From Truepera radiovictrix DSM 17093 (lineage in GTDB: Bacteria > Deinococcota > Deinococci > Deinococcales > Trueperaceae), in assembly GCF_000092425.1 (NCBI RefSeq), contig NC_014221.1:1989001-2053000 (forward strand): a DNA stretch of 64,000 nucleotides. Reading direction: 5' to 3'. Positions 29,737-34,157 of this stretch are shown here, piece after piece. Each line of letters begins with the position of its first letter. Position 1 is the first letter of the stretch. The notes below the pieces were generated by a model. It was not told the DNA's origin. It worked only from the letters and a program-made list of their open reading frames with translations, and ran no database searches. Made by a program: the position numbers and the translations under genes.

Positions 29737-29753
29737 ACGGGTCATAGACCCGT
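29737..29753 (-). terminator. Hairpin at the end of tnpA
   Basis: ACGGGTC-ATA-GACCCGT (29737-29753) directly follows and overlaps the tnpA stop codon on the minus strand. It may terminate transcription or block it from crossing the element. Confidence 0.5.
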
Positions 29754-30181
29754 CAGTCCTCTGTCCTGAAGTTGTCCTCTCGGGTCGGCTCGAAGTGATG
29801 CTCCAGGTAGCTCTTGATCATCTCTTCCGTGACTTGCCCCACCGTCGCACAGAAGTACCCTCTAGCCCAAAAGTGCCGCCCCCAATAACGTGCTTTTAGC
29901 TTCGGATACTCCTCGAATAGCTTGCTCGCACTTCGCCCTTTGATCCGCCGCATGATCTCACTCGGCGCCATTGTCGGCGGCGCACTCACCAGAATATGCA
30001 CGTGGTCGCTACTCACCACTCCGCTCAGAATCCGTATCTCGAACGCCTCGCAGGTTTGCCGCACCAACTCCCTAACACGCTCGGCTATGTCCCCTTTCAG
30101 CACCTTGTAGCGGTACTTCGTGACCCACACAAAGTGGTACTCGATGTTGAAGACGGTATGGCTGCCATAGCGATACTCCAT
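29753..30181 (-). CDS. tnpA: IS200-type Y1 transposase TnpA
   Basis: A 142-residue Y1 HUH single-strand transposase. The HUH motif is H60-V-H62 in SSDHVHILVSAPP and the nucleophile is Tyr125 in EMIKSYLEHHFEP. The N-terminal YHFVWVTKYR is a family hallmark. The length is normal and no frameshift is seen, so it looks intact. It recognises the subterminal hairpins and moves single-stranded DNA through a circular intermediate. Confidence 0.96.
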   Translation of the reverse strand: MEYRYGSHTVFNIEYHFVWVTKYRYKVLKGDIAERVRELVRQTCEAFEIRILSGVVSSDHVHILVSAPPTMAPSEIMRRIKGRSASKLFEEYPKLKARYWGRHFWARGYFCATVGQVTEEMIKSYLEHHFEPTREDNFRTED

Positions 30182-32372: not shown

Positions 32373-32633
32373 ATGGATATCGTCAGCATCTTACTGTGGA
32401 TCGTCTTCGGGGCGCTCGCCGGCTGGATCGCCAGCCTCATCATGAAAACGAACCGGGAGCAGGGCCTCCTGACCGATATCATCGTGGGCATCGTGGGTGC
32501 CTTTATCGGTGGGTTTATCTTTAACCTTTTCGGCGCGACCGGCGTCACCGGCTTTAACATCGGCAGCTTGCTCGTCGCCATTATCGGCGCCGTTGTCCTG
32601 CTCGCTATCGTCAAGGCAGTACGAAGGGCCTAA
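32373..32633 (+). CDS. GlsB/YeaQ/YmgE-family small membrane stress protein
   Basis: An 86-residue protein with three predicted transmembrane helices: ILLWIVFGALAGWIASLIM, ADIIVGIVGAF-like (TDIIVGIVGAFIGGFIFNLF) and IGSLLVAIIGAVVLLAIV, plus the family GxxAGWxAxxIM motif. Homologues are induced by general stress. GGAGG lies 5 nt before the ATG, and a strong terminator follows at 32651, so it is a single-gene unit. Confidence 0.93.
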   Translation: MDIVSILLWIVFGALAGWIASLIMKTNREQGLLTDIIVGIVGAFIGGFIFNLFGATGVTGFNIGSLLVAIIGAVVLLAIVKAVRRA

Positions 32634-32650
32634 CAGCTTTGACATCCCTT

Positions 32651-32677
32651 AAAAAGGCGGGTTATCCCGCCTTTTTT
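32651..32677 (+). terminator. Intrinsic terminator
   Basis: A run of A, the stem GGCGGG-TTAT-CCCGCC, and a run of six T. It follows the GlsB-type gene by 18 nt. Confidence 0.9.
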
Positions 32678-32773
32678 CATGGCTCGCAGGGGGTTCCGCC
32701 AAGCCCATCGGTACTCAGCTGCTACCCGTTTGAGAGAGCTCTGACGCCCGCTGGAGAGCCTACCGCGTAGGGC

Positions 32774-32893
32774 ATGCGAACCCGAGTCACCCTACGTATC
32801 CACTCGCACATGTCCGCCCTACAACGCCAGAGCGTGAGTGTTGGGATAGCCGACCTGCTCAACCCCAACGCGCGGCAAAGGGGAGCGAACTGA
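32774..32893 (+). pseudogene. Probable C-terminal relic of a tyrosine integrase
   Basis: A 39-codon stretch reads MRTRVTLRIHSHMSALQRQ, then SVSVGIADLLNPNARQRGAN, before a stop. This resembles the C-terminus of phage-type tyrosine recombinases (usual form ...VTLxIYSHxxPxMQxxAxxxIxxLL), with the catalytic Tyr position replaced by His. It is followed by GATAGCAGTAAAATAGCAGT, a sequence style common after prophage integrase genes. It lies 90 bp from tRNA-Met, the typical integration site. No upstream part of the gene remains. Interpretation from pattern memory only. Confidence 0.4.
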
Positions 32894-32929
32894 TAGCAGT
32901 AAAATAGCAGTACGCCCACCCAAAAAGAG

Positions 32930-32953
32930 AACCCGCCTTCTTGGGCGGGTTTT
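32930..32953. terminator. Intrinsic terminator (bidirectional)
   Basis: AACCCGCC-TTCTT-GGGCGGGTT, with A run before and T run after. It lies between the integrase relic and tRNA-Met and can terminate the minus-strand tRNA transcript as well. Confidence 0.8.
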
Positions 32954-32981
32954 ACGTTTGCCGTCTCTGACGGCTTTTTCG

Positions 32982-33058
32982 TGGTAGCGATGGAGAGACT
33001 TGAACTCTCGACCTCACGATTATGAGTCGTGCGCTCTAACCAGCTGAGCTACATCGCC
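32982..33058 (-). tRNA. tRNA-Met (CAT), elongator
   Basis: A 77-nt cloverleaf with CCA encoded. The acceptor stem is GGCGATG/CATCGCT (first pair G-U), then the D-loop with AGCTCAGCTGGTTAGAGC, anticodon stem CACGACT...AATCGTG with CAT at 33024-33022, and T-loop GTTCAAGTC. The sequence matches elongator tRNA-Met better than tRNA-Ile2 (CAT), and it lacks the initiator C1:A72 mismatch and GGG:CCC anticodon stem. The adjacent integrase relic suggests it once served as an attachment site. Confidence 0.95.
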
Positions 33059-33236
33059 GCGCCGTGCGCTGCAGGCTTAGGGAGTATACCTTATAGCCAA
33101 GGGCTTCGGCAAGGGCTCGTCCTCGTGGGCAACGTGTGGCACGCCCCGTAGCACCACCAGGTATCCTCACTAGCGGCGCTGTCTCCCACGGGTGAGCGGG
33201 TGTATCGTAGACACAGCTGGTGGTAAAGGAGAAAAC

Positions 33237-34157
33237 GTGATCGAAGGACTTTATCGGCGTGGGCTTCTAGGCATCGCTGACACCCCCGCGGTCGCCGACT
33301 TTGTCAAGAGTCAGGGGTGGAAGCTCGGCGTAGGGCGCTTCGTTGCGGGGGAAACGTTAGAGGACGTGCTAAGAGCGGTGCGGGCGCTTCATCAGGAGGG
33401 GCTCAGCAGCATCCTGGACCTTCTGGGGGAGTTTATCGACACCGAGGCGGGCGCCGAGGCGATGACAAACGAGGTTCTGCGGACGCTCGACACGCTCGCC
33501 CAGGAGGACACCGAGCGCTACATGAGCGTCAAACCGACGCAGCTCGGGCTCGGCGTCTCCTTCGAGCTGGCGCTCTACAACGCCCGCCGCGTCGCCGAGC
33601 GAGCGGCGGAAGTGGGTGCGAGGGTCTGTCTAGACATGGAGAACGTCCCTTACGTCGACGGTACGCTCAACCTCTTGCGTACGCTCTACGGGGAGGGGCA
33701 CCACCACCTGTCGACCGTCTTGCAAAGCTACCTCTACAGGAGCATGGGCGACCTCGAGGCCCTCTTGACGCTCGAGCCTAAACCCGCTATCCGCATCGTC
33801 AAGGGCGCCTACCGCGAGAGCGAGGCGGTCGCCTTTCAGGACAAGCGCCAGGTCGACGACAACTACCGCGAGATGCTCTACCGCGGCCTCGAGGCGGGGG
33901 CGCACATCGGCGTCGCCACACACGACGAGAGCATCATCCGCGAAACCGAAGCGTTCGTGCGGGGCGCCAAGGCGAAAAACTACGAGTTCCAGCTGCTGTA
34001 CGGGGTCAAGCCGAGCTTGCAGCGCGCGCTCGCCGCGCGCGGACACAAGGTGCGTATCTACATCCCCTACGGCGAGGACTGGTACGGTTACTTCAGCCGC
34101 CGCCTGGCCGAGCGGCCCGCGAACCTCGCTTTCGTCCTGCGCGGCCTGCTCGGCTAA
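33237..34157 (+). CDS. putA: Proline dehydrogenase (Thermus-type, monofunctional)
   Basis: A 306-residue FAD-dependent TIM barrel: proline to P5C. Motifs include SVKPTQLGLGVSFELAL, VCLDMENVPYVDGTL, VLQSYLYRSMGDLE, IRIVKGAYRESEAVAFQDKR and the C-terminal RIYIPYGEDWYGYFSRRLAERP with the substrate-binding YxxRRxxE. The length equals the T. thermophilus enzyme. GTG 33237 has AAAGGAG 5 nt upstream; an earlier ATG at 33192 is not supported. It is followed after 67 nt by the P5C dehydrogenase gene. Confidence 0.95.
   Translation: MIEGLYRRGLLGIADTPAVADFVKSQGWKLGVGRFVAGETLEDVLRAVRALHQEGLSSILDLLGEFIDTEAGAEAMTNEVLRTLDTLAQEDTERYMSVKPTQLGLGVSFELALYNARRVAERAAEVGARVCLDMENVPYVDGTLNLLRTLYGEGHHHLSTVLQSYLYRSMGDLEALLTLEPKPAIRIVKGAYRESEAVAFQDKRQVDDNYREMLYRGLEAGAHIGVATHDESIIRETEAFVRGAKAKNYEFQLLYGVKPSLQRALAARGHKVRIYIPYGEDWYGYFSRRLAERPANLAFVLRGLLG

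Follow-up and report, generated by a model that had tools for sequence, protein, structure and literature searches.

The window analysed here, a stretch of 64,000 nucleotides, covers bases 1989001-2053000 of the one-contig genome (3,260,398 bases) of Truepera radiovictrix DSM 17093. A tRNA-Met gene (anticodon CAT) lies on its minus strand at 32982-33058 (ARAGORN; Rfam tRNA, 73.7 bits), with its 3′ end, the proposed integration target, at 32982. Facing this end is the 3′ end of a plus-strand frame of 39 codons plus stop (32774-32893); 88 bases separate the stop codon from the tRNA, in agreement with the 90 bp given by the first-pass annotation. The intervening segment (32894-32981, minus strand), relatives of which adjoin eight further tRNA genes in this genome, is termed the attachment-arm module below. 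An IS200-like transposase gene (PF01797, E 2.5e-46) is located at 29753-30181, about 2.6 kb from the frame.

Going away from tRNA-Met, the arm consists of a dyad at 32974-32960, a hairpin at 32951-32930, and twin repeats at the stop codon of the frame. A terminator scan identified both of the first two elements. The dyad, GCCGTC-N3-GACGGC (32960-32974), is followed by a T-run on the plus strand and is terminator-like for the integrase direction; by eye, a dyad-like sequence is present at several, not all, related flanks. The hairpin (32930-32951) is terminator-like on the tRNA strand, where it is followed by CTCTTTTT. The scan returned 2 terminator-like sites in 32600-33240, versus 0.6 (sd 0.8) in shuffles. 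A lag scan showed two direct repeats, TAGCAGTAAAA and TAGCAGTACGC (32894-32915, plus strand), that agree at 9 of 11 positions at lag 11, where this flank scores highest. They hold two TAGCAGT copies spaced 11 bp apart, immediately 3′ of the stop, and account for the "sequence style" that the first-pass annotation had likened to that behind integrase genes. We infer that the twin repeats are bound by the integrase, i.e., that they are putative arm-type sites. When the arm flank without the tRNA was searched against the DNA of its own genome, no relative other than itself was found (other matches, E 0.8 or more), and its single inverted self-match lay in the hairpin of the neighbouring gene (E 0.0014).

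The 39-codon frame had been said to resemble the end of a tyrosine recombinase, a claim that a profile search without similarity to recombinases was to refute. The general libraries, Pfam and PHROGs, gave no match at E<=10, which read literally amounts to rejection, whereas a family profile of 27 related integrase tails, from which the window, L084, and L089 were omitted, found the frame: 32771-32890 was the top match among 1520 six-frame frames of the window (E 0.0074, 12.2 bits). The runner-up frame had E 0.2, and the best frame of the reversed window E 0.54. Taken alone, the E value of the relic frame is modest evidence. Local alignment (BLOSUM62) to the integrase tail of L062 scored 71, a value reached by none of 5000 shuffles of the relic (shuffle maximum, 44). 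Four further reference tails, picked after their inspection, gave 0 (own tRNA-Lys), 0 (L064), 1 (own tRNA-Ala), and 3 (own tRNA-Val(GAC)) shuffles, each of 5000, that reached the relic score. By eye, the peptide AYRVGHANP, encoded just upstream in another frame (32758-32784, plus strand), resembles ADRVGHTDP of L062 and would continue the homology. These comparisons indicate that the frame is the degraded tail of a tyrosine integrase, a probable descendant of PF00589. In the alignment, a CAC codon (His; 32801-32803) takes the place of the catalytic Tyr; the relic is therefore a pseudogene fragment rather than a working recombinase. We see next to no chance that the frame is a functional small gene instead. 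It is open and has an ATG start, but it begins inside the integrase C-terminal region, its upstream part lies in another frame, the Tyr position is His, and neither library revealed a small-protein family.

The module, or a relative of it, adjoins at least nine of the tRNA genes in this genome: tRNA-Met of the window, a second tRNA-Met, and the genes for Asn, Val(GAC), Val(TAC), Ala(CGC), Arg(TCT), Thr(CGT), and Lys(CTT). This count leaves out a tenth, weak match at 278402 (E 0.004). Behind several of them, common sequence starts right after the CCA end. An integrase tail is recognisable at five of the nine scars (window Met, Lys, Val(GAC), Val(TAC), and Ala). Judged by eye, perhaps a few last integrase codons remain at the Asn, Arg, and second Met scars, and none at Thr. 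Behind tRNA-Val(GAC), a frame on the opposite strand ends like a tyrosine integrase, and a nearly complete integrase, broken by two stops, faces tRNA-Ala(CGC). An intact integrase had been proposed as a search target: at none of the nine scars was an unbroken member of the relic's family found, and open ones occur in relatives (L062 and G008). A scan of seven stretches of the genome for far tRNA repeats yielded only a 14-base match between tRNA-Asn and tRNA-Met, located inside both tRNAs.

Alternatively, the shared flank might be a terminator cassette of the host that spread from one tRNA gene to another by copying, with the frame resembling an integrase by chance. The terminator is common to six other tRNA genes at 75-99% identity to one query, no integrase tail is visible by eye at tRNA-Thr, and the general profiles miss the relic frame, all of which would suit a cassette. 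Against it, five of the nine tRNA genes have an integrase tail behind the module, the integrase likeness of the relic survives shuffling, and the order of the arm recurs in phage genomes (see below). We consider a copied cassette very improbable and read the flank as an element scar.

Several other features adjoin these scars. CRISPR-like arrays at L094:328-1299 (13 repeat copies) and L095:13611-13952 (5 copies), both with a spacing of 74-78, begin about 150-210 bases from the tRNA-Thr and second tRNA-Met scars; they may have been part of the lost elements or attracted by them. A ParE-like toxin gene precedes each of the broken integrases at tRNA-Ala and tRNA-Val(TAC) (L045:3007-4836 and L048:1174-2847), accompanied by an HTH gene at tRNA-Val(TAC) and by a 140-codon frame without Pfam match at tRNA-Ala. 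At tRNA-Val(GAC), two frames with matches to IS4/5-type transposase families (L043:394-1253) come immediately behind the integrase tail, an arrangement that suggests that an insertion sequence cut this integrase.

Repeat spacing was compared at lags 7 to 20 across 22 tRNA flanks, of which nine belong to this genome and 13 to others. Lag 11 had a mean best match of 8.41 of 11; the means of the other lags lay within 5.77-6.23. A lag-11 score of 9 or more was obtained for 11 of the 22 flanks versus 0.8% of letter-shuffled flanks. Lag 11 was top or tied in 16 flanks and is thus not universal; in five of these (L062, L083, own Ala, own Val(GAC), and own second Met) it was only tied. The exceptions peaked at 12 (L067, L081, and L088), at 9 (L085, in which the tRNA faces the start of the integrase rather than its end), and at 17 (own Arg and Thr). 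A second set compared 26 distinct integrase ends with 130 other ORF ends: 9 of the former and 5 of the latter scored 9 or more at lag 11 (Fisher p 3e-5), the remaining 17 integrase ends falling below 9. The two sets share some loci and include close relatives, so that their counts are non-independent. Hairpins were assessed within 75 bases in 21 flanks. For 20 of these flanks, no more than 1 of 60 shuffles matched the best hairpin; for L083, 4 of 60 did. The best fold of the window flank is a longer pairing that overlaps the terminator stem, and a clear T-run is absent from several of the 21 flanks. A constant GGAC-type motif behind CCA, noticed by eye, was dropped, since a fixed pattern was present in only 11 of 21 flanks.

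Relatives of the C-terminal part of the tRNA-Ala(CGC) integrase were detected in 21 of 61 genomes, including this one. In 12 of 27 integrase loci of other genomes, the integrase and a tRNA point their 3′ ends at each other, and in 11 of these 12 the two are separated by no more than about 160 bases. The tail closest to the relic (score 71) is that of L062, from uncultured Truepera sp. AVDCRST_MAG86 (contig CADCWP010000184.1), in which the integrase faces tRNA-Lys(CTT). L062 shares the facing arrangement and the twin repeats with the window and differs in its open integrase (379 codons), its tRNA, and its repeat sequence. In G008 (L098), a 15-kb stretch adjoins tRNA-Ala(GGC), starts with an open integrase of 413 codons, and ends in a repeat of the tRNA-Ala 3′ part, about 50 bases by eye. 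Five of the 10 scanned proteins of this element (30 ORFs listed) matched Pfam: DUF3987, Rad52-like, TIR/SEFIR, a restriction subunit, and a DNA methylase. The TIR/SEFIR, restriction, and methylase genes (L098:5184-13887) are likely defence cargo. A far tRNA repeat was found in 2 of 15 relative stretches (L098 and L109; the L109 integrase adjoins the displaced copy), a scan in which several stretches were cut by contig ends and two contained no tRNA. When the best-matching tRNA-Met was taken from each of 19 relatives, its flanks showed no copy of the window arm by eye, L002 and L013 showing partial likeness. A search for the empty site through the neighbouring proline dehydrogenase gene, at 17 of 29 relative loci, gave 16 without a tRNA nearby and one with other tRNAs, and no empty site among them. 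A scan of IMG/VR with the Truepera sp. integrase, using patterns that detect close relatives only, returned no relative.

We are confident that an element with a tRNA-targeting tyrosine integrase inserted at tRNA-Met, then decayed and was deleted, leaving a scar. The first-pass annotation had proposed an element integrated at tRNA-Met and lost by excision or decay. Integration and loss are borne out by the integrase tail, the arm, and the relatives at eight other tRNA genes, and of the two routes decay is the better account. The duplicated tRNA-Met 3′ segment that it had suggested looking for did not appear: no second tRNA-Met 3′ end with up to 3 mismatches was found in the window (23-mer) or in the genome (20-mer). 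No such end lies at a far side, and the locus is therefore not an intact element. The single remaining 3′ end would also fit an element that left by precise excision, with the flank as ancestral site, but precise excision would restore a bare site, and the arm repeats and integrase tail are still present. We regard precise excision as extremely improbable; decay by deletion fits better, because the arm and tail remain and no second tRNA-Met end does.

The homology of the tail, the anatomy of the arm, its recurrence both in integrated relatives and in the genomes of two phages, and the single tRNA-Met end are direct observations; the order of events we infer as follows. The tRNA-Met 3′ end would have been the target of a tyrosine integrase, by which an integrative element (phage or island) inserted there, and a hairpin terminator, twin repeats, and an integrase gene pointing at the tRNA would have come to rest just downstream of tRNA-Met. 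The integrase would then have decayed, with loss of the Tyr position and a shift of frame. A deletion would have taken the rest of the integrase gene, the cargo, and the distal attachment site, leaving a scar of about 220 bp (about 32758-32981). This copy may have been a phage or a non-phage island, given the cargo of its relative in G008 on the one hand and the same arm order in Thermus phages on the other.

The hairpin of the element is the nearest terminator-like site on the tRNA-Met strand, and may act on tRNA-Met. All nine scars keep a hairpin stronger than nearly all shuffles, without any surviving unbroken integrase. It is conceivable, though we think it rather doubtful, that dead elements gave host tRNA genes their terminators and that tRNA-Met now ends on the terminator of a dead element; the arm may have been retained because tRNA-Met now uses it. 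Two points stand against a donated terminator. A palindromic hairpin with T-runs at about 32650-32677, at the end of the neighbouring gene, could stop tRNA-Met transcripts too, and the arm may persist merely as the part nearest the tRNA. With nine related scars, each at its own tRNA gene, this one genome offers a small natural series of stages in decay, across which the tRNA-adjoining part, arm and terminator, lasts. The idea that tRNA terminators can be supplied by selfish DNA could be tested on them. Arm-site recognition could be easier to decode with integrases that mostly keep the 11-bp spacing while their repeats vary in sequence.

The arrangement in the window has counterparts in phages. 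The Thermus phages Riverbug (PQ109080.1) and Lalka8 (PQ109075.1) show the same order of integrase stop, twin direct repeats, G+C hairpin, and partial tRNA 3′ end, with the latter on the strand opposite to the integrase, as in the window. Their integrases are 34% and 30% identical, respectively, to that of Truepera sp. (L062). They differ from the window in that the repeats are 12 apart (10 of 12 matches) rather than 11, the tRNA ends are others, and both are whole phage genomes. In Thermus phages IN93 (AB063393.2) and Tsatsa (PQ109078.1), whose integrases are 37% identical to the Truepera sp. integrase, a tRNA 3′ fragment is followed by a hairpin and then, by eye, by CACCTA repeats 11 apart; unlike in the window, the integrase lies on the opposite side of the tRNA fragment. 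The repeats lie beyond the range of the automatic lag scan, which therefore gave only 4 and 5 of 11; by eye the scores were 7 and 6 of 11. ARAGORN found no whole tRNA in the four phage stretches. Our preferred reading of the module is therefore an element-side arm that would land beside a tRNA upon integration. In a distant-mode DNA search of phage records, the best 20 of 1394 records matched the tRNA part only.

The accessible part of the literature yielded no paper on these Truepera tRNA scars, and the main text of the T. radiovictrix RQ-24T genome paper (PMC3072082) contains neither "prophage" nor "integrase". Arm-binding domains are described in PMC8138268 as a mark of mobile-element integrases. 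For Oenococcus oeni prophages (PMC8074189), direct repeats near the integrase stop and the tRNA core are proposed as arm-type sites. Several of these repeats contain GCAC, as do the TGCACC repeats of the Truepera genome; the O. oeni case differs in phylum, in having repeats on both arms, and in its intact prophages. The tRNA-Met scar is real, but it is another case of an already known phenomenon.
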